A stretch of DNA of 64,000 nt from Pseudomonas sp. A-1 (GTDB lineage: Bacteria > Pseudomonadota > Gammaproteobacteria > Pseudomonadales > Pseudomonadaceae): the NCBI RefSeq assembly GCF_004801855.1, contig NZ_SSTC01000012.1, positions 1 through 64,000 of the forward strand, read 5' to 3'. Each line of letters starts with the position of its first letter. The stretch's first letter is position 1. The notes below the pieces were generated by a model. That model saw nothing but the letters and a program-made list of their open reading frames with translations, searched no databases and was not told the origin of the DNA. Made by a program: the position numbers and the translations under genes. Positions 16,501 to 46,313 of the stretch are shown here, one piece after another.

Positions 16501-18120
16501 CTTGCCATCCTGAGTTTCTTGCAAAACGTTAAGGCTACACAGAGAGCGCAGAATCTCCTGCGAGGAAGAAAAGCGCTGATAAGGTACGACTAAACTACGT
16601 GACTCGAGCATTTCTGCAGCGATGGCTTCAATTGCTTGTATTGCAGGATCACCAAGCGAGGCATTGCCCCGTACAATCACATCGAGATAACGCTGCGCCA
16701 AAGCTTGGCTGGTTACGACGTTGAAACCGCCCTCTCGTTGTGCCAACTCGACAAACAATGCTAGTTCCCGATGGTTTCGAATTAGCTCTCGTGTAACAGC
16801 ATCAATCTCGACGGACGCAATCCCCAACCCCTCAATTAAAGGCGCAATTTTTCCATCCCAATCCAAAGGCGGGCATTTGAATTCGCAATCCCATTGCCTT
16901 TCCGCGATTCGGCGGTCGTACTGCCTGTCAAAGTCGCGACAAGCGGTAATTACGCTCACATTTTCAATCAATAGGAGACGGTCTATTTGAGCCAGAAAAT
17001 AGGTGAGCACGCGATGGTCTCGGGCGATAGAAAGCACATCCAGAGAGTCGATTATCACAACCACCTGCGCGCTTTCCGCCATACGAGCTGCTTGGTTTAC
17101 CCACTGTTCAGACAGCCCAAAAGCTTGTCGATCCTGCGAAGTTGCCAGATCAGCAAACTCGCGTGATTGGATGAAGAGAGGCACGATATCTGAGCGGTGT
17201 TGTGCGTGTCGCTCCAAGGTCTCCTGTACCTCAAGCATCACACAGGTTTTTCCCGAACCAGGTAAACCAGTAAGCAATATGGCGCGTTTTCCAGCGTCGA
17301 TGGCGGCCAGCAGTTCGCTCACCACCGGGTTGTGCATCCGCTGACCTGCCACATCACGCCGCCATGATCTCCCGATGGCTGAGATACTGGAAAATGATGC
17401 GCGAACCTCCGCAATATTCACGGGAGGAGCCAGCAGCGCTCCAGCCTTGTGAAGAATGGCTTCGAGAGATTTTTTGGTGAATCGATGCTGGGCGTTTGCG
17501 GATGAACCATCACCGCTCATGCGCGCCCCCAATTGATCTAGATGAACCCAGAGTGCGTTGAATGCAGAATCTGGATTACTGACCATGCTACGCAGACGTT
17601 CTAGTAGCTGGCTTTGCATGCGATCCAGAGCGCTGCTGGTTTCAAACTCTGTACGGCGAAGGAATTCGTAGGTTGAAAGACCTGGGGCGGCAGAGGAGAG
17701 TAATCTTGATAGGGCAGCATTTGTTTTCTGATTTGCGATGCTCAAACTAGCTTCATAGGCGTTCGCATCATGCTGAGTTGCGCTGTGTTCTTTTAACTTC
17801 CCCACCCCTCCAAAGTTATTGCGCGAATAGAAATAAACTTCCGAGTATTTATTCTGTTTAAGCAGCCTAGCGGCTTTGTCTAGTTCACTCGCAAGATCAG
17901 TTATCGACCACGCTTCGAAATCGATTTGATTTTTTTTGCACTGGCAAGCGATCAGCGTGCCATCGGATTTACCAATGACCACATCGTCGACTAGATAAGT
18001 TATCGAATCAACTTCAAGCCATTGATAGTTTTCGTCGGATAGAACTGTCAATGCCCAATCAAATGCCACCAATGTTTGGTAGCCGTCGCCGCGGTTCGAG
18101 CGTATGCCAGCAATACTCAT
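13543..18120 (-). CDS. Large STAND NTPase with nuclease-like N-terminus (Avs-like defence candidate)
   Basis: This 1525-residue protein has an N-terminal domain with GDGYQ (11-15), E36, DD (45-46) and QCKK (60-63). That is the E-D-QxK arrangement of PD-(D/E)XK nucleases and is closest to the Cap4/DUF4297 type. A STAND/NACHT-like NTPase follows with Walker A GLPGSGKT (285-292), Walker B VVVIIDSLD (353-361) and a sensor-like ACRDFD (393-398). About 1000 further residues are helical and could form a ligand-sensing solenoid. Effector nuclease, STAND core and long C-terminal sensor are the plan of Avs anti-phage proteins, which trigger DNA cleavage on phage protein recognition. G+C is far below the neighbours, indicating transfer. 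The start at ATG 18120 has only a weak GGGG upstream. The gene stands alone. Confidence 0.75.
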   Translation of the reverse strand: MSIAGIRSNRGDGYQTLVAFDWALTVLSDENYQWLEVDSITYLVDDVVIGKSDGTLIACQCKKNQIDFEAWSITDLASELDKAARLLKQNKYSEVYFYSRNNFGGVGKLKEHSATQHDANAYEASLSIANQKTNAALSRLLSSAAPGLSTYEFLRRTEFETSSALDRMQSQLLERLRSMVSNPDSAFNALWVHLDQLGARMSGDGSSANAQHRFTKKSLEAILHKAGALLAPPVNIAEVRASFSSISAIGRSWRRDVAGQRMHNPVVSELLAAIDAGKRAILLTGLPGSGKTCVMLEVQETLERHAQHRSDIVPLFIQSREFADLATSQDRQAFGLSEQWVNQAARMAESAQVVVIIDSLDVLSIARDHRVLTYFLAQIDRLLLIENVSVITACRDFDRQYDRRIAERQWDCEFKCPPLDWDGKIAPLIEGLGIASVEIDAVTRELIRNHRELALFVELAQREGGFNVVTSQALAQRYLDVIVRGNASLGDPAIQAIEAIAAEMLESRSLVVPYQRFSSSQEILRSLCSLNVLQETQDGKLTFGHQTLLDVLVISGALRSGITLNQFIQSLPPVPFVRPSIRSFVAQLALGERREFRKQTRAVLTGNAAFHIRRLVAESFSEQVPVDDDWPLMRELREKHRDVFQVIYTTARAIEWHRFWLKYLVPVLKAERDAEGYAAHAYHIARWKNEDAQLVFSFWYEVLSLDWVDSNRIAGQLPFYLSEITMENLALVVPLLQRLLDMPYADHGFLGRSIARCVEAGVVGDDLLWRYMVGGVDEKDLLEYRFDNKLHCQAHEFGDRQGGCVRQRMEQSTKFLDLVVTSIEQWSDVRKSRYGETRIGYRHGFLSETSYQKTHSRQDMHHVDNMVALLDAVESSIVHHAKTHSSWWQDNRERLCFNHEGALLYFAVQACIVTPEANIDLIGHMLCDQNMLEFELNYELGELIKSAFKLLGEATQDAVIATILGIWDKYLSKDIEHCWVLKERAELISAIPCYLRSPEAQAVIDDYEKKAGVIDRQPKILSWGGVVRAPFSFEVFLDASNNVLLRLLAHYSGHVDRGGVDFLVGGEREVGWQLREASSRHPARFLGFLSNFWADIPASFRDDIMDGVATYLACRYGSLQANENWVPIEEPEASALASNIIDELERHSQHWQLRRPAAKALEACANVVKTLRDAERLVFLTIGFERLEEANPITGDNVSLISLGINMAKGDVAEALMILASDVQKIGGTLPELLEPTLRRYAGDKNPAIRAVVLRRLPYLQSKNFELGWNLFHVAMHDAEGLWQIAEPCLYYAYHNHFVVVRPLLARLRLEGRGKDLEVWGRISALCSLTRHIELAEFIEDLNVLDSTEAWLGAATVWTHTENIQQYREECFAGLEAGLNAGGTHALAVARKIERIFGDQMPPISVPVEVVRSCFYIFENDGDSESKHHRLFGFHEWLNAIAQSDPEQALAAAKIYLAYVNSCKPYLYDHKDSLTQLMTRLFAEAEEREESDGGVMLNIVVEIQDTLLSLGVNGVTDWLKAAERP
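14943..14951. repeat. Homopolymer tract inside the STAND gene (G9 on coding strand)
   Basis: Nine consecutive C on the plus strand give nine G on the coding strand, around codons 1057-1060 (residues D-R-G-G-V). Codon choice does not require this run, since Gly and Arg have many other codons. Such tracts slip during replication and can switch a frame on and off. In this copy the frame is open. Confidence 0.8.
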
Positions 18121-24062: not shown

Positions 24063-25781
24063 TCAGCCGCCGAGCAGCTGCCAGGCCAGCAGGACAGCGA
24101 ACAGCAGGCTGGCGCTGCGCCAGAACAGCAGCGGGTTGCGCTCCAGCAGCGGCGGCCGGCGCCGGTTGAGGTATTCGGCGCTGGGCTGGCGCAGGTCGTG
24201 GACGAATTCGGAGAGCTCGGCCTGGCGGCGGTTGGGATCGGGCTGCAGGGCCTTGCGCAGTACCTCGTCGATCCACGGCGGGATGTTGCGCTCGCCGTGC
24301 GCCAGCGGCCGGTAGACCAGGCGGTTCTGCTCGGCGCGGTTGCGACACTTGGCGACCTCGGCGCCGTAGGGCAGGTCGCCGCCGAGCAGCTGGTAGGCGA
24401 TCACCGCCAGGGAGAACAGGTCCGAGCGCGGCGAGCCGGGCTCGCCGATGAAGTACTCCGGGGCCATGTACTGCAGGGTGCCCGGCAGCGCCTGCGCCGC
24501 CCGCTGCGGCGTGCGCTCGGCGAGGCCGGCGACCTGTGCCGAGCCGAAGTCGATCAGCCGGACGGTGCCGCTGGCGTCGATCAGCAGGTTCTCCGGGCGC
24601 AGGTCCTGGTGGAGCATCTCCAGACGGTGGAAGGCCTGCAGGCCGCGGGCGATCTGCTCGACCAGGTCGCGCACCTTCTCCAGCCCCGGCCGCGGGTTGT
24701 CGATCATCCACTGACGCAGGGTCTGGCCCTCGACGTATTCGCTGACGGTGTAGAGGTAGCGGCGCCGGCGCGTCTGCGGCGGGGCCTTGAGCACGTGGGC
24801 GCTGTCGATGCGGCGGGCGATCCATTCCTCGCCGAGCAGGCGCTCCAGGTGGGCGAGGTCGCCCTGCAGCTCGGTGGCCGGCACCTTGAGCACCACCGGC
24901 CGCTCGCCGTCCAGCGCCAGGTAGACGTGGCTGCGGCTGCTGGCGTGCAGGCTGCGCACGATGCGGTAGCCGTCGAACTCCATGCGCGGCTGCAGCAGCG
25001 GCGGCAGCGGCAGCTCGCCGAGCAGCTGGTGCAGCTCGCCGGCGTCGGCCTGCGGCAGCTGTTCGATGCGCACCAGCTGCACGGTGAGGTTGTCGTCGCT
25101 GCCGCGCCGGTAGGCTTCCTCGACCATCGCGCGGGCGGCGGCGTCGAGGTCGTCGGCGTGGGCGCGCAGCAGCTCGACCATGGCCGCGGGTGGCAGGTGT
25201 TCGTGGACGCCGTCGCTGGTGAGCAGGAACAGGTCGCCGGGCTCCAGCGCCAGGCTGCGGTGGTCCAGCTCCAGGTGCGGGCCGATGCCCAGGGCGCGGC
25301 TGAGGTAGCTGGTGTCGCGCGAGACCCACAGGCGGTGGTCCTCGGTCAGGCGCTCCAGCTCGTCGCCGCGCAGGCGGCAGATGCGCGTGTCGCCGGCGTG
25401 GAACAGGTGCGCGCGGGTGGCCTTGAACACCAGCGCGCTGAGGGTGCAGACGTAGCCGCGGTCCATGTCGTAGCGGTACTGGCTCTGCCGGGTCTGTGCG
25501 TAGAGCCAGGCGTTGGCGGCCATCAGCACGCGCTGCGCGGACTTCCTCACCGACCAGGCCTCGGCGGTGCAGTAGTAGTCGGCGAGGAAGCTGGCCACCG
25601 CCGCCTCGCTGGCGACCTGGCTGACCGCGCTGCTGCCGATGCCGTCGGCCAGGGCGATGGCGATGCCCTTGCTGGAGAGCTGCGGCTCGGCCGGGATGCA
25701 GGCGCCGTGGAAGTCCTGGTTGAGCGCCTTGCGGCCCTTGTCCGAGTACTGGCCGAGGCTGACGACGAGTTGCTGGGACAT
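24063..25781 (-). CDS. PP2C phosphatase/serine-threonine kinase fusion protein
   Basis: This 572-residue protein fuses a PP2C phosphatase (about 1-240) to a protein kinase (about 270-530) and a C-terminal membrane anchor (about 553-570). The phosphatase has NQD (21-23), ADG (45-47), AGD (129-131), SDG (189-191) and SDDN (228-231). The kinase has Lys299 in VVLKVP, catalytic HQDLRPEN (391-398) and DFG (411-413). The loop reads HQD rather than HRD, and the Gly-rich loop lacks the usual glycines, so kinase activity may be atypical. A similar fusion accompanies nitrate/nitrite assimilation genes in P. aeruginosa. It is last in the nirB-nirD-nirC direction, and probably tunes nitrogen assimilation by phosphorylation; the targets are unknown. 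Confidence 0.88.
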   Translation of the reverse strand: MSQQLVVSLGQYSDKGRKALNQDFHGACIPAEPQLSSKGIAIALADGIGSSAVSQVASEAAVASFLADYYCTAEAWSVRKSAQRVLMAANAWLYAQTRQSQYRYDMDRGYVCTLSALVFKATRAHLFHAGDTRICRLRGDELERLTEDHRLWVSRDTSYLSRALGIGPHLELDHRSLALEPGDLFLLTSDGVHEHLPPAAMVELLRAHADDLDAAARAMVEEAYRRGSDDNLTVQLVRIEQLPQADAGELHQLLGELPLPPLLQPRMEFDGYRIVRSLHASSRSHVYLALDGERPVVLKVPATELQGDLAHLERLLGEEWIARRIDSAHVLKAPPQTRRRRYLYTVSEYVEGQTLRQWMIDNPRPGLEKVRDLVEQIARGLQAFHRLEMLHQDLRPENLLIDASGTVRLIDFGSAQVAGLAERTPQRAAQALPGTLQYMAPEYFIGEPGSPRSDLFSLAVIAYQLLGGDLPYGAEVAKCRNRAEQNRLVYRPLAHGERNIPPWIDEVLRKALQPDPNRRQAELSEFVHDLRQPSAEYLNRRRPPLLERNPLLFWRSASLLFAVLLAWQLLGG

Positions 25782-25823: not shown

Positions 25824-26636
25824 TCAGACGAAGGAGCGCTTGGGCGCGGTCTTGACGTGGGTGGCGTAGAGGGTCAGGCCGGTGAAGGCCAGGCCGCCGA
25901 CCAGGTTGCCCAGGGCGGTGGGGATCTCGTTCCAGATCATGTAGTCCATCACCGAGAAATCGCCGCCCATGATCATGCCGAAGGGGAACAGAAACATGTT
26001 CACCACCGAGTGCTCGAAGCCCATGTAGAAGAACAGCATGATCGGCATCCACATGGCGATGGCCTTGCCGCTGACGGTGGTGGAAATCATCGCGCCGACC
26101 ACGCCCATGGACACCATCCAGTTGCACAGCATGCCGCGCAGGAAGATGGTCAGCCAGCCGGCGGTGCCGAACTCGGCGTAGCCCAGGGTGCGCGCCTCGC
26201 CGATGTGCGAGATCTTCTCGCCGATGGCGCCGGGGCTGGTGGAGAAGCCGTAGGTGAAGACGAAGGCCATCATCACGGCGACCGTCAACGCGCCGGCGAA
26301 GTTGCCGGTGAACACCAGGCCCCAGTTCTTCAGCACACCGCCGACGGTAACGCCGGGGCGCTTGTCCAGCAGCGCCAGCGGGGTGAGCATGAATACTCCG
26401 GTGAGCAGGTCGAAGCCCATCAGGTAGAGCATGATGAAACCGACCGGGAAGAATGCTGCGCCAAGCAGCGGCGAACCGGTCTGGACCGTGATGGAGATGG
26501 CGAACACCGCGGCCAGGGCGAGGATGGCGCCGGCCATGTAGGCGCGGATCAGGGTGTCGCGGGTGGACATGTAGATCTTCGATTCGCCGGCATCGACCAT
26601 CTTGGAGGCGAACTCGGCAGGGACCAGGTAGGACAT
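25824..26636 (-). CDS. nirC: Formate/nitrite transporter family protein (NirC-like)
   Basis: This 270-residue inner-membrane protein has six predicted membrane segments and the FNT-family features: an N-terminal amphipathic stretch, GFIMLYLMGFDLLTGVF, NFAGALTV, and LRGMLCNWMVSMGV with the conserved Asn near a pore helix. Located directly after nirBD, nitrite is the expected substrate, so NirC is preferred over FocA. It lies 58 bases after nirD. Many Pseudomonas use NasA-type transporters here, so the FNT channel is a variation worth noting. Confidence 0.85.
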   Translation of the reverse strand: MSYLVPAEFASKMVDAGESKIYMSTRDTLIRAYMAGAILALAAVFAISITVQTGSPLLGAAFFPVGFIMLYLMGFDLLTGVFMLTPLALLDKRPGVTVGGVLKNWGLVFTGNFAGALTVAVMMAFVFTYGFSTSPGAIGEKISHIGEARTLGYAEFGTAGWLTIFLRGMLCNWMVSMGVVGAMISTTVSGKAIAMWMPIMLFFYMGFEHSVVNMFLFPFGMIMGGDFSVMDYMIWNEIPTALGNLVGGLAFTGLTLYATHVKTAPKRSFV

Positions 26637-26694: not shown

Positions 26695-27045
26695 TCAGCA
26701 GAAGATTTCCACGCGCTCGCCGCGCAGACGCACCGGCCACACCGGCAGGCGCTGCTCGGGGTATTCCAGGCAGCCGCCGTCGCTCAGGCGGAAGTGCTGC
26801 TTGTACAGCGGCGAGGCGATCACCAGCTCGCCCTGCAGGTGGCCGAGGAGGCCGCGGCCGATCACGTTGGCGCCGGACCTGGGGTCGCGGTTGCCGATGG
26901 CGAAGACCTGCGGCTCGCTGCCTGGCAGGTAGAACAGCGCTACCTGCGCGCCGCCGGCGCGGGCGACGATGCCGGAGTTGGCGACCAGGTCGGCGGCGGC
27001 GCACAGCGGCTGCCAGCAGGCTTCGAGTTTCAGGGCGGTGTTCAT
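26695..27045 (-). CDS. nirD: Nitrite reductase (NADH) small subunit
   Basis: This 116-residue protein has the Rieske-fold NirD layout (VALFYLPGSEPQVFAIGNRDP, then LVIASPLYKQHFRL) but no CxH pairs for a Rieske cluster, as expected for NirD. It pairs with NirB in cytoplasmic assimilatory nitrite reduction to ammonium. Its ATG at 27045 overlaps the nirB stop by one base, indicating translational coupling. Confidence 0.93.
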   Translation of the reverse strand: MNTALKLEACWQPLCAAADLVANSGIVARAGGAQVALFYLPGSEPQVFAIGNRDPRSGANVIGRGLLGHLQGELVIASPLYKQHFRLSDGGCLEYPEQRLPVWPVRLRGERVEIFC

Positions 27046-29603
27046 CAGACGGCCTCCTCGGTCAGGGGAATCAGGTGCAGTTCATCGGTGCGCGCCGGGC
27101 GGCGCTGGCCGCGTTCGCGGACGAAGTGGATGTCCGGGTCGCCGCCGTGTTCGTTGACGAAGGTACGGAAGCGCTTGAGCTTCTCCTCGTCCTTGAGGGC
27201 GTTGGCCCATTCGCATTCGTAGCGGTCGACCACCAGCTGCATCTGCGCCTCCAGCTCGGCGGCCAGACCCAGGCTGTCGTGGATGACCACGTCCTTGAGG
27301 TAGTCCAGGCCGCCCTCCAGCGACTCGCGCCACACCGAGGTGCGCTGCAGCTTGTCGGCGGTGCGGATGTAGAACATCAGCAGGCGATCGATGTAGCGGA
27401 TCAGGGTCCGGTCATCCAGGTCGGTGGCGAACAGCTCGGCGTGGCGCGGACGCATGCCGCCGTTGCCGCAGACGTAGAGATTCCAGCCGTTCTCGGTGGC
27501 GATCACGCCGATGTCCTTGCTCTGCGCCTCGGCGCACTCGCGGGTGCAGCCGGAGACCGCGAACTTGAGCTTGTGCGGCGCGCGCAGGCCCTTGTAGCGG
27601 TGCTCGATGTCGAGGGCCATCTTCACGCTGTCCTGCACCCCGTAGCGGCACCAGGTGCTGCCGACGCAGCTCTTCACCGTGCGGGTGGACTTGCCGTAGG
27701 CGTGGCCGGTCTCGAAGCCGGCGGCGATCAGCTCGGCCCAGATCTCCGGCAGCTCGTGCAGCTGGGCGCCGAACAGGTCGATGCGCTGGCCGCCGGTGAT
27801 CTTGGTGTAGAGGTCGTACTTCTTCGCCACCTGGCCGATGGCGATCAGCCCCTCGGGGGTGATCTCGCCGCCGGGGATGCGCGGCACCACCGAGTAGGTG
27901 CCGTTCTTCTGCATGTTGGCCATGAAGGTGTCGTTGGTGTCCTGCAGCGGCACCAGCGCCGGGTCCATGATCGGGCGGTTCCAGCAGGAGGCGAGGATCG
28001 AGCCCACCGCCGGCTTGCAGATGTCGCAGCCGACATGGCCCTTGCCGTGCCTGGCCAGCAGTTCCTCGAAGCTCTCGATGCCCTCGACGCGGACGAGGTG
28101 GTAGAGCTCCTGGCGGGTGTAGGCGAAGTGCTCGCAGAGGCTCTTGTCGACTTCCACGCCGCGGGCGCTCAGCTCGTGCTCGACCACCTGCTTGAGCAGC
28201 GCAGCGCAGCCACCGCAGCCGGTGGCCGCCTTGGTGCAGGCCTTGACGCTGGCGATGTCGCTGCAGCCGCCGTCGATGGCGGCGCAGATCGCGCCCTTGC
28301 TGACGTTGTGGCAGGAGCAGATGGTGGCCGTCTCCGGCAGGGCGTCGGCGCCCAGCGCCGGGGCATCGCTGCCGGCGGGCATGATCAGGCTGGCCGGGTC
28401 TTCCGGCAGCTTGATGCCGTTCTGCGCGTACTGCAGCAGGGTGTCGTAGTAGCTGTTGTCGCCGACCAGCACGGCGCCGAGCACCTGCTTGCCGTCGGCC
28501 GAAACCACCAGGCGGCGGTAGCTGGCGCTGGCCTCGTCGATGTAGCGGTAGCTGCGCGAACCGGGCATGGCGCCGTGGGCGTCGCCGATGGAGCCGACGT
28601 CGACGCCGAGCAGCTTGAGCTTGGTCGACATGTCGGCGCCGAGGAACGGCTGGGCTTCCTGGCCGCACAGCTGGGCGGCCACGGCGCGGGCCATCTGGTA
28701 GCCGGGGGCGACCAGGCCGAAGACGCTGCCGTTCCAGGCCGCGCACTCGCCGATGGCGTGGATGCGCTCGTCACTGGTCAGGCACTGGTCGTTGATCCCG
28801 ATGCCGCCACGCGGGCCCAGCTCCAGGCCGCAGGCGCGGGCCAGAGCGTCCTGCGGGCGGATGCCGGCGGAGAACACGATCAGGTCGGTCTCGAGAAAGT
28901 CGTCGCCGGCGAAGTTCATCCGGTAGCGGTACTCGCTGCCGGCGCTGATGCTCTGGGTGGCCTTGGACAGGTGCACGCCGACGCCCAGATCCTCGATGCG
29001 CTGCTTCAGCGCCGCGCCGCCGAAGTCGTCCAGCTGCACCGGCATCAGCCGCGGGGCGAACTCCACCACGTGGGCTTCGAGGCCCAGCGACTTCAGCGCG
29101 TTGGCCGCTTCCAGGCCGAGCAGGCCGCCGCCGACCACCACGCCGCGGCGCTGGCCCCGGGCGGCGGCGCGGATTGCGTCGAGGTCGTCGAGGGTGCGGT
29201 AGACCAGGCGCGCCTCGCCCGCGGCGCCCTCGATCGACGGCACGAAGGGGTAGGAGCCGGTGGCCAGCACCAGCCTGTCGTAGCCGAAGCGGCCCTGGCT
29301 GGTGACCACCTCGCCGCTGGCGCGGTCGATCTCCAGCACCGCGGTGCCCAGGTGCAGGGTCAGGCCTTCGGCTTCATAGAGCGAGGCGGCGCTCATGGCC
29401 AGGGACTCGGCGTCGCGGTCGCCGAAGTACTCGGAGAGGTGCACGCGGTCGTAGGCGCGCTGCGCCTCCTCGCCGAACACCTCGATGCGGTAGTGCGCCA
29501 GGGCGCCGCCCGCGAGCAGTTGCTCGACGCAGTGATGCCCGACCATGCCGTTGCCGACGATGATCAGCCGTTGCTTGTCAGTGGAGAGGTCTGTGCTGTG
29601 CAT
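27045..29603 (-). CDS. nirB: Nitrite reductase (NADH) large subunit
   Basis: This 852-residue flavoprotein begins at ATG 29603 with GGGAA upstream; the open frame extends further but into the leader hairpins. It carries an FAD loop GNGMVG (17-22), a second NAD domain, a BFD-type [2Fe-2S] cluster region CSCHNVSKGAI near residue 428, and ferredoxin-like half domains. The siroheme/[4Fe-4S] cysteines lie in CVGSTWC (about 645) and CTREC (about 685). It reduces nitrite to ammonium with NADH in the cytoplasm. A sigma54 promoter and an antitermination-type leader precede it. Confidence 0.95.
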   Translation of the reverse strand: MHSTDLSTDKQRLIIVGNGMVGHHCVEQLLAGGALAHYRIEVFGEEAQRAYDRVHLSEYFGDRDAESLAMSAASLYEAEGLTLHLGTAVLEIDRASGEVVTSQGRFGYDRLVLATGSYPFVPSIEGAAGEARLVYRTLDDLDAIRAAARGQRRGVVVGGGLLGLEAANALKSLGLEAHVVEFAPRLMPVQLDDFGGAALKQRIEDLGVGVHLSKATQSISAGSEYRYRMNFAGDDFLETDLIVFSAGIRPQDALARACGLELGPRGGIGINDQCLTSDERIHAIGECAAWNGSVFGLVAPGYQMARAVAAQLCGQEAQPFLGADMSTKLKLLGVDVGSIGDAHGAMPGSRSYRYIDEASASYRRLVVSADGKQVLGAVLVGDNSYYDTLLQYAQNGIKLPEDPASLIMPAGSDAPALGADALPETATICSCHNVSKGAICAAIDGGCSDIASVKACTKAATGCGGCAALLKQVVEHELSARGVEVDKSLCEHFAYTRQELYHLVRVEGIESFEELLARHGKGHVGCDICKPAVGSILASCWNRPIMDPALVPLQDTNDTFMANMQKNGTYSVVPRIPGGEITPEGLIAIGQVAKKYDLYTKITGGQRIDLFGAQLHELPEIWAELIAAGFETGHAYGKSTRTVKSCVGSTWCRYGVQDSVKMALDIEHRYKGLRAPHKLKFAVSGCTRECAEAQSKDIGVIATENGWNLYVCGNGGMRPRHAELFATDLDDRTLIRYIDRLLMFYIRTADKLQRTSVWRESLEGGLDYLKDVVIHDSLGLAAELEAQMQLVVDRYECEWANALKDEEKLKRFRTFVNEHGGDPDIHFVRERGQRRPARTDELHLIPLTEEAV

Positions 29604-29645: not shown

Positions 29646-29685
29646 GAAAAAAGGCGCCTGAGACCTCGCGGTCCCAGGCGCCTTT
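29646..29685 (-). terminator. Intrinsic terminator (attenuator) in the nirB leader
   Basis: On the minus strand AGGCGCCTG and GGACC, a GCGA tetraloop and the complements GGTCT and CAGGCGCCT form a 14-bp stem followed by six T. The T run ends about 43 bases upstream of the nirB ATG. A terminator inside a 5' leader implies conditional read-through. Together with the hexaloop hairpins upstream it fits NasT/NasR-type antitermination. Confidence 0.85.
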
Positions 29686-29698
29686 GCCTGTTCTGTGC

Positions 29699-29761
29699 GG
29701 CGCCCTCGGAGGCGCCCTGTCGCCCATCGCCTGCGTTGGCGGCTCGATCGCCGTTGATCGA
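29699..29761 (-). promoter_or_regulatory. Paired hairpins resembling an ANTAR (NasT/NasR) RNA target
   Basis: On the minus strand, hairpin P1 (29761-29744) is TCGATC, loop AACGGC, GATCGA. Its six-base loop has A at position 1 and G at position 4, the bases that ANTAR antiterminators recognise. Hairpin P2 (29716-29699) is GGCGCC, loop TCCGAG, GGCGCC, with G at position 4 but T at position 1. P2 contains GGCGCC, so it could compete with the terminator stem. Two tandem hexaloops followed by a terminator match the known nasF and nasA leaders. Structure is seen; binding by NasT is inferred. Confidence 0.65.
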
Positions 29762-29796
29762 GTGGGCGGCCCCTCAGCGGGGCTCGAGTATGACGA

Positions 29797-29813
29797 AGCA
29801 TTTGCCGTGCCAA
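29797..29813 (-). promoter_or_regulatory. Sigma54 (-24/-12) promoter for nirB
   Basis: Minus strand TTGGCACGGCAAATGCT has GG and GC separated by ten bases and fits TGGCACG-N4-TTGC with one mismatch in the -12 block. Transcription would begin near 29786 and give a leader of about 180 nt containing the paired hairpins and the terminator. NtrC is the expected activator; no enhancer site was sought beyond this. Confidence 0.6.
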
Positions 29814-29945
29814 CTCTGCCGCATGGCGCGACTGGCGGGCTGCAGCGGCCCTCCGGGGGGCCGTGCGCCGTCACCCGGCAGCGAAATGGAACCAGAATGG
29901 TGCAGCGATGGCGCATCTGCCCCGCGATGAGGCCCGCCGCCGGGC

Positions 29946-30662
29946 TCAGTGCCCGCCCAGATAGGCGCTGCGCACCTCGGGATTGCCGAGCAGCTCCGCC
30001 CCGGAGCCGCTGAGGCGGATCTCGCCGTTGACCAGCACGTAGCCGCGGTCGGACAGCCTGAGGGCATGGTTGGCGTTCTGCTCGACCAGAAAGATGGTCA
30101 TGCCACCGGCGGCCAGCTCGCGCAGGGTCTGGAAGATCTGCCGCACCACCAGCGGCGCCAGCCCCAGGGAAGGCTCGTCGAGCAGCAGCAGGCGCGGCCG
30201 GCTCATCAGCGCGCGGGCGATGGCGAGCATCTGCTGCTCGCCGCCGGAGAGGGTCATGGCGCGCTGCTGGCGGCGCTCCTCGAGGCGCGGGAACAGCGCG
30301 TACATGCGCCGCAGATCCTCGGCGGCGTGCCGCTGGCCGACGGTGATGGTGCCCATCAGCAGGTTCTCCTCGACGCTCATGTCGGGGAACACCCGCCGCC
30401 CCTCGGGCACCTGGGCCACGCCGCTGGCGGCGACGTGATGGGCGGAGCGGAAGGTGATGTCCTCGCCGGCGAGGAGGATCTGCCCGGCGCTGGCGCGCGG
30501 CTGGCCGAAGATCGACATCAGCAGGCTCGACTTGCCGGCGCCGTTGGCGCCGATCAGGCACACCGTCTCGCCCTCCTCCACCCGCAGGCTGACCCCGCGC
30601 AGGGCCTGCACCGGGCCGTAGAACAGGTCGAGGTCGCGCAGTTCGAGCAGCGGCGCGCTCAT
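29946..30662 (-). CDS. livF: Branched-chain amino acid ABC transporter, ATP-binding protein LivF
   Basis: This 238-residue ABC ATPase has Walker A GANGAGKSS (about 38-46), signature LSGGEQQ and Walker B LLLLDEPSLGL. It matches LivF/BraG in size and in the ending GSGAELLGNPEVRSAYLGGH. It is the last gene of livKHMGF, and its ATG overlaps the livG stop (ATGA at 30659-30662). Confidence 0.92.
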   Translation of the reverse strand: MSAPLLELRDLDLFYGPVQALRGVSLRVEEGETVCLIGANGAGKSSLLMSIFGQPRASAGQILLAGEDITFRSAHHVAASGVAQVPEGRRVFPDMSVEENLLMGTITVGQRHAAEDLRRMYALFPRLEERRQQRAMTLSGGEQQMLAIARALMSRPRLLLLDEPSLGLAPLVVRQIFQTLRELAAGGMTIFLVEQNANHALRLSDRGYVLVNGEIRLSGSGAELLGNPEVRSAYLGGH

Positions 30663-45932: not shown

Positions 45933-46009
45933 TGGCGCAGTGGACGGGACTCGAACCCGCGACCCCCGGCGTGACAGGCCGGTATTCTAACCGACTGAAC
46001 TACCACTGC
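45933..46009 (-). tRNA. tRNA-Asp (anticodon GTC)
   Basis: On the minus strand a full cloverleaf of 77 nt with encoded CCA is visible: acceptor GCAGTGG pairs with CCACTGC, then discriminator G. The anticodon stem CCGGC/GCCGG holds loop CTGTCAC with anticodon GTC, and the T arm GCGGGTTCGAGTCCCGT is canonical. It is identical in sequence to the copy at 46115. Confidence 0.97.
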
Positions 46010-46114
46010 GCGTCGGCTGGACTTGCGTCCGGTACAACTTGGTGAAGCGTCTGAGCGAAGAGCCATCTGGCTTCTGCGATCTCGAACCCGCTGCAAAGGC
46101 GAATCCGGAAATAA

Positions 46115-46191
46115 TGGCGCAGTGGACGGGACTCGAACCCGCGACCCCCGGCGTGACAGGCCGGTATTCTAACCGACTGAACTACCACTGC
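46115..46191 (-). tRNA. tRNA-Asp (anticodon GTC), second copy
   Basis: The 77-nt sequence is the same as the downstream tRNA-Asp, including CCA and anticodon GTC. The 20 bases on its 5' side (46193-46212) match those of the other copy at all but one position. This indicates a recent tandem duplication of tRNA plus flank. Confidence 0.97.
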
Positions 46192-46237
46192 GCGTCGGCC
46201 GGACTTGCGTCCGAATACTTCATTGCGTGACAAGGTT

Positions 46238-46313
46238 TGGTGGCTGATGACGGGATCGAACCGCCGACCCCCTGCGTGTGATGCAGGTGCTCTCCCAGCT
46301 GAGCTAATCAGCC
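46238..46313 (-). tRNA. tRNA-Val (anticodon CAC)
   Basis: The minus strand gives a 76-nt cloverleaf: acceptor GGCTGAT/ATCAGCC with discriminator A and encoded CCA, D arm GCTC/GAGC, and anticodon stem CCTGC/GCAGG with loop ATCACAC. The anticodon is CAC, which reads GUG, the dominant Val codon in this genome. It is first in the Val-Asp-Asp operon. Confidence 0.95.

Follow-up and report, generated by a model that had tools for sequence, protein, structure and literature searches.

The nitrite reductase gene nirB in a 64,000-nucleotide stretch of Pseudomonas sp. A-1 DNA (hereafter, the window) is preceded by a leader that we read, with a probability of roughly 0.86, as a NalA-type antitermination leader under NasST control, in which NtrC and sigma54 would initiate transcription and NasT would carry it past a terminator. 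The NalA leader of nirBD was reportedly described by Romeo et al. in 2012 for P. aeruginosa and by Nie et al. in 2024 for P. putida. For the window leader, we infer from its sequence and its relatives that NtrC acts on it, that NasT binds it, that read-through follows and that nitrate or nitrite is the signal. A preliminary description of this DNA had placed a nirB leader at positions 29646 to 29813; the leader is real, lies on the minus strand and has those coordinates. It and the genes that it serves are made up as follows.

29888..29904, minus strand: NtrC-like site TGCACCATTCTGGTTCC, matching 11 of the 13 fixed positions of what we take to be the NtrC consensus
29798..29812, minus strand: sigma54 -24/-12 element TGGCACGGCAAATGC; this pattern and the P2 pattern occur together in 72/81 leaders (the best 80 of 595 relatives and the window)
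29767-29763 with 29726-29722, minus strand: outer helix GCCCA/TGGGC, enclosing P1 and the adjacent hairpin
29743..29762, minus strand: P1 hairpin CTCGATC[AACGGC]GATCGAG, an A1/G4 hexaloop with a C:G closing pair
29728..29741, minus strand: adjacent hairpin CGCC[AACGCA]GGCG, an A1/G4 hexaloop beside P1
29699..29716, minus strand: middle hairpin GGCGCC[TCCGAG]GGCGCC, degenerate, with T1 and with G4 kept
29675..29690, minus strand: P2 hairpin CAGGC[AAAGGC]GCCTG, an A1/G4 hexaloop that uses the 5' arm of the terminator
29647..29685, minus strand: intrinsic terminator AAAGGCGCCTGGGACC-GCGA-GGTCTCAGGCGCCTTT, stem 29685-29650, with 16 pairs, a GCGA loop and six T
27045..29603, minus strand: nirB, nitrite reductase large subunit, 852 aa, ATG at 29603, NirB subfamily model 1263 bits
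26695..27045, minus strand: nirD, small subunit
25824..26636, minus strand: formate/nitrite transporter family gene
24063..25781, minus strand: PP2C phosphatase-Ser/Thr kinase fusion, immediately downstream of the formate/nitrite transporter family gene and in the same orientation

The -24/-12 promoter that the preliminary description had recognized is indeed found, at 29812-29798, and transcription would start near 29787. The sigma54 pattern has two matches in the 64-kb window against 1.17 expected, which is the level of chance; since the pattern alone is thus not significant, the element draws its weight from its conservation before nirB. The other exact match, at 17947-17962 on the minus strand, is likewise at chance level. 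The distance from the NtrC-like site to the -24 element downstream of it is about 90 bp, and such sites score at least 10 in 61/77 leaders, compared with about 5.8 expected from letter shuffles only, the consensus again being the one that we assume. Elsewhere in the window, three consecutive tRNA genes lie at 45936-46313 on the minus strand.

Downstream of the promoter, the A1/G4 hexaloop AACGGC described earlier is the loop of the P1 hairpin (29762-29743). In relatives, 74% of the cells of the outer helix around it are paired, with some compensatory changes. The adjacent AACGCA hairpin was considered as a conserved second site and rejected, as other loops stand there in the nearest kin. The preliminary description had counted TCCGAG as the second hexaloop. 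This is a real hairpin with T at position 1 (29716-29699), but it does not overlie the terminator, and we reject it as the antiterminator: the A1/G4 hairpin in that position is the AAAGGC hairpin P2, which had been overlooked. The P2-type pattern CAGGCANNGNNGCCTG has one match in the window (0.03 expected). P1 and P2 are separated by 52 nt with hairpins between them; from the end of the middle hairpin to P2 the distance is 8 nt. The intrinsic terminator with six T just before nirB likewise stands as previously claimed; it has 16 pairs, of which the outermost are A:T, and its six T are at 29652-29647. It is the one terminator-like site in 601 bp, where 0.2 were expected. A 196-nt stretch of the leader folds at -96 kcal/mol (z = -4.1).

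The 3' arm of P2 is part of the 5' arm of the terminator, so that the two structures are mutually exclusive. In prefix folds, P2 has pair probabilities of 0.7-1.0 when the RNA ends anywhere from 29675 to 29659 and of zero from 29655 on, the point at which the terminator replaces it. The full leader folds at -83.9 kcal/mol and, with P2 forced, at -71.4 kcal/mol; thus, the terminator fold is better by 12.5 kcal/mol. The leader therefore holds two hexaloops with A1, G4 and a C:G closing pair (AACGGC in P1 and AAAGGC in P2), and both the coordinates and the prefix folds indicate that P2 overlaps the terminator and precludes its formation. The arrangement is that of the ANTAR model, in which a second hairpin lies over the terminator, as given in the available parts of PMC3369931, PMC8934654 and PMC7496416.

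The preliminary description had called for a search for nasS and nasT and had let its proposal hinge on a nasT-type gene. The genome, rated 99.98% complete, has a single ANTAR match, a 194-aa response-regulator/ANTAR protein that is NasT, and its gene directly follows one for a 450-aa NMT1_2-family protein, which we call NasS-like because of its family and because it adjoins nasT. These two genes lie about 3 kb from ABC transporter genes; the transporter's ATPase passes the nitrate transporter cut-off, its permease falls below its own cut-off, and its binding protein matches NMT1_2 only. A search for NasR, the NIT-ANTAR protein, gave no match in this genome (G000) at E 1e-30. The absence of a nasT-type gene, which would have refuted the proposal, is thus not the case here, and the proposed dual control by NtrC/sigma54 and NasT is supported: it fits the NtrC-like sites, the sigma54 element and the hexaloops, which track nasT across genomes as described below.

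We compared the window leader with those of the best 80 of 595 relatives, 81 leaders in all; these relatives are not independent, and kinship among the leaders inflates the counts that follow. The P2 hairpin, written as CAGGC[ANNGNN]GCCTG, occurs in 73/81 leaders, and those without the pair of promoter and P2 patterns are L029, L041, L046, L059, L065, L073, L078, L079 and L081. Among the genomes of the best 80 of 595 loci, 70 encode a NasT with at least 75% identity, three encode one with 41% identity and seven have none. Within this same set, now including the window, the P2 pattern is present in all 71 leaders accompanied by a NasT of at least 75% identity, compared with 2 of the 10 others (L036 and L041); six of those ten are from Achromobacter or Schauerella, so that descent partly confounds this comparison. 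As some leaders from genomes lacking nasT retain P2, its presence by itself is no proof of NasT.

The stretch between the promoter and P2 was scanned for upstream A1/G4 hexaloops on stems of at least 4 bp, leaving out L028, L073 and L078, in which the script found no P2, and L099, a repeat of L011. At least one such hexaloop is present in 70 of 80 leaders from nasT genomes, that is, the 71 above and 10 from family genomes, less L028 (dinucleotide shuffles, n = 100: mean 7.1, maximum 16), and at least two are present in 24 of the 80 (shuffle mean 0.26, maximum 3). None was found in the 11 leaders without nasT, of which nine are distinct, as L092 and L093 repeat L029 and L041 (0.57 expected by chance), or in the two with a distant NasT. 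When stems of at least 3 bp were allowed in 11 leaders, nine without nasT and these two, no A1/G4 hexaloop common to them emerged: nine had none, and L036 and L081 had one 3-bp candidate each. Nine of the ten exceptions among the nasT genomes come from P. syringae and species that we take to be its kin, together with P. ovata; these syringae-like leaders have G1 in P1 and AACGNN on a 3-bp stem in the middle hairpin. The tenth, L052, has a P1 stem too short for the scan.

Several leaders in these sets have features of their own. The P. resinovorans leader (L011:1642-1972) has a P1-P2 spacer of about 198 nt, compared with 23-88 nt in the other leaders measured. The Achromobacter leaders L046, L059, L073, L078 and L079 combine a sigma54-like element with a GGC[AAAGGC or AATGGC]GCC core and lack P1; the core precedes a short, T-poor, terminator-like hairpin, where the terminator scan gave no terminator. 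Two of their genomes have no NasT match and three have one at 41%. Leaders L092-L096 and L108-L111, from five NasT-less Pseudomonadaceae genomes, keep the promoter, the AAAGGC loop (on a 3-bp core in L092) and the terminator, and by the scan have no upstream A1/G4 hexaloop.

The helices of the leader covary to differing degrees. For P1 and the terminator, 33 cells are changed on both sides and the covariation score is 0.210, each value being reached by 0/500 shuffles; the counts of changed pairs (57/500 shuffles) and the pair types (399/500) are not clearly above shuffles. For P1 and P2 the signal is weak, its score being matched by 19/500 shuffles, since P2 is invariant in the 48-row alignment A1 and the rows were chosen by the P2 pattern. 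Between leader families, the P2 stem differs while its pairing is kept: CAGGC/GCCTG, GGAC/GTCC, TGAC/GTCA and CAGAC/GTCTG.

The Pseudomonas sp. A-1 genome contains at least two further leaders of this type, one for the nitrate ABC transporter and one for a second nirB. The former precedes the binding-protein gene nrtA (L082:4860-5260) and carries TGGCAAGTCCCTTGC, GATCGCC[AACGGC]GGTGATC, a 9-nt linker and TGAC[AAAGAC]GTCA over a terminator, which has a long apical part. The latter (L087:1878-2060) carries TGGCACGTTATCTGC, CCCTC[AACGGC]GAGGG and GGAC[AAAGGC]GTCC over a terminator, and this leader, at C55, is Rfam P11 (RF00625), with 84.7 bits. The first 680 residues of the second NirB fit the NirB model, and the window NirB shares 37% identity with it over 691 aligned positions. 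P11 and the window leader have the same order of a sigma54 element, an AACGNN hexaloop, a middle hairpin and an AAAGGC hexaloop over the terminator, but they differ in the P2 stem (GGAC/GTCC in P11, CAGGC/GCCTG in the window), and the window has a longer P1-P2 distance and T1 in its middle loop. The window leader is not itself P11, as its score of 20.4 bits falls well short of the 70 bits required for gathering. Weak matches to other Rfam families (Scr6925, ctRNA_p42d, Ysr224, narK and others) were set aside, as each is far below its gathering score. R1, a model built from alignment A1, found no further strong leader in this genome (next best E 0.05); as neither the P11 nor the transporter leader is picked up by R1, further ones may exist.

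In a survey of 99 family genomes, in which the RNA searches used stricter filters, 46 had an R1 match, 67 had NasT and 66 had P11. NasT is encoded in 41/46 genomes with R1 and in 26/53 without it; nasT is present in 64/66 genomes with P11 compared with 3/33 others. In the genus of Pseudomonas sp. A-1, R1 matched 5 of 8 genomes, its own included; the same-species genome G006 gave no match.

The five R1 genomes without NasT bear on whether a NasR-type (NIT-ANTAR) or other ANTAR protein, instead of NasT, controls the window leader. Four of them encode a NIT-ANTAR protein, the fifth being 70% complete, and their R1-type leaders keep the AAAGGC hairpin and the terminator, both of which speak for such a regulator. 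NasR is nevertheless not exclusive to NasT-less genomes, as 9 of the 41 R1 genomes with NasT also encode a NIT-ANTAR protein, and in the nearly complete Pseudomonas sp. A-1 genome NasT is the only ANTAR match and no NasR was found. For the window itself, we regard control by NasR or another ANTAR protein in place of NasT as the least probable of the explanations considered here, with hardly any chance of being correct. It is also very improbable that the hairpin serves only as the terminator of the upstream liv branched-chain amino acid transport genes, with no role for nirB. Genes that are liv-like do lie directly upstream on the minus strand, the last ORF ending at 29946 (the LivG and LivH models score just below their cut-offs), and the terminator is strong; against this, the hairpin stands downstream of a promoter-like element and overlaps a hexaloop hairpin, and the promoter and P2 patterns travel with nirB in the great majority of the leaders compared.

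The paralogous leader raises a further explanation, namely that the terminated leader is mainly a stable trans-acting sRNA, as discussed for P11 of P. aeruginosa, with control by read-through being secondary. The available part of PMC12080996 describes P11 in P. aeruginosa PA14 as an sRNA that regulates a nitrogen assimilation operon with NirB, NirD and NasC. Hexaloops over the terminator and the link with nasT fit control in cis instead, and we consider it highly unlikely that the window leader acts chiefly in trans. From their position and features, we infer that P11 and NalA are one RNA, and P11 is likely to be an ANTAR target and not only an sRNA.

Several points stand against the reading of the window leader as a NasT leader of the NalA kind: the long P1-P2 distance, the low P11 score, P2 in leaders without nasT and its weak covariation, the kinship of the relatives, the 26 genomes with nasT and no R1 match, and T1 in the middle hairpin, which is at the right distance before P2. 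Middle hairpins were compared between leaders, using 21 P11-type leaders (20 author-chosen of the 66 P11-positive genomes, and the one from Pseudomonas sp. A-1). A middle hairpin whose loop has six bases with A1/G4, on at least 4 bp of stem, is present in 17/21, the others being L127, L129, L132 and the Pseudomonas sp. A-1 leader, with a seven-base loop; by the same definition, P1 is present in 14/21, P2 in 21/21 and all three in 11/21. In the P11 alignment, the middle loop has A1 in 20/20 rows and G4 in 19/19 rows with letters, positions 2, 3 and 6 varying. The three P11 helices jointly covary (12 cells, 0/500 shuffles; further pair types, 95/500). In P11, the closing pair of the middle hairpin is G:C or G:U and not C:G, which disfavors this hairpin as a NasT site; in the available text of PMC7496416, selection with NasR favored a C:G closing pair. 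That the P11 loci were found by P11's own model also counts against the middle hairpin as such a site.

Among nirB-type leaders, 37 non-redundant spacers were drawn from 77 leaders with a recognized P1, and 23 of them have a C:G-closed A1/G4 hexaloop on a stem of at least 3 bp (letter shuffles, n = 300: mean 1.2, maximum 5). This is the middle hairpin in 19 and a hairpin beside P1 in four (the window, L006, L010 and L064). Departures in the middle loop include TCCGAG in the window, CACGAA in near kin and some 5- or 7-base loops. Judged by sequence, TCCGAG corresponds to a middle loop that in many cases has A1/G4 (19/37 non-redundant nirB leaders), with A1 lost in the window. The lineages contrast: syringae-like leaders have G1 in P1 and an AACGNN middle loop, and in the window it is P1 that is intact and the middle loop that is degenerate.

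These A1/G4 middle loops suggest triple arrays. Tentatively, and at somewhat less than even odds, we propose that NasT leaders of the Pseudomonadaceae are relay arrays of three A1/G4 hexaloops, with P1 for loading, the middle loop, and P2 over the terminator. Lineages would have shifted duty among the upstream loops, a hand-over of NasT between loops or a folded spacer would satisfy the distance limits known for EutV, and NasT and NasR would be swappable with P2 and the terminator kept. Two points lower these odds: 4 of the 23 spacers score through a hairpin adjacent to P1, and in P11 the middle hairpin has G:C, not C:G, as its closing pair. Literature searched by title and the beginning of the abstract, a scope that leaves Romeo 2012, Nie 2024 and Marogi 2024 outside, gave no report of a triple array.

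A NasT leader of the NalA kind would be expected to work in the window as follows. When nitrogen is short, NtrC and sigma54 would start transcription. Without nitrate or nitrite, NasS would hold NasT; P2 would form first, and the stronger terminator would displace it as the terminator's 3' arm emerges, stopping transcription before nirB. With nitrate or nitrite, free NasT would bind the P1 hexaloop, and perhaps the middle hairpin too, and would then engage and hold P2, so that the terminator is blocked and the genes for NirB, NirD and the transporter are expressed.

This scheme has close counterparts. According to the available part of a review (PMC12830290), the nirBD leader NalA is started by sigma54/NtrC and opened by NasT. 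Like that leader, the window has, from its sequence and conservation, a nirB operon leader with a sigma54-type promoter and an intrinsic terminator hairpin before the first gene, to which NasT antitermination would be added; the window leader differs in that it precedes another nirB and scores below the P11 gathering score. In Paracoccus denitrificans, nitrate or nitrite frees NasT from NasS and NasT binds a leader, as stated in the available text of PMC3795266. Likewise, the accessible parts of PMC7496416, PMC3369931 and PMC8934654 give C:G-closed A1/G4 hexaloops, the second over the terminator, for Klebsiella nasF/NasR and Enterococcus eut/EutV, although in the window the signal would come via NasS-NasT. 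The eut linkers are 5-12 nt, and induction by EutV is reduced when the linker is 3 or 14 nt long (PMC3369931, in the part available); the 52 nt between P1 and P2 in the window lie outside that range, whereas the linker of the organism's own transporter leader is 9 nt.

The finding is sound and for the most part unsurprising, as it adds one more NasT leader to those of the NalA/P11 kind. What is less ordinary is the arrangement in three loops and the way in which it shifts from one lineage to another. In Pseudomonas sp. A-1, the two nirB genes would join the nitrate ABC transporter and the known NalA/P11 leader in one predicted sigma54-NasT regulon. Rfam lists P11 as an sRNA, and the finding would also connect this family with an antitermination element of the ANTAR type. 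These leaders form a natural series, with or without nasT, with NasR present, with none to several upstream hexaloops and with P1-P2 spacers ranging from 9 nt to about 90 nt, and this series makes the use of several hexaloops by an ANTAR dimer directly testable.
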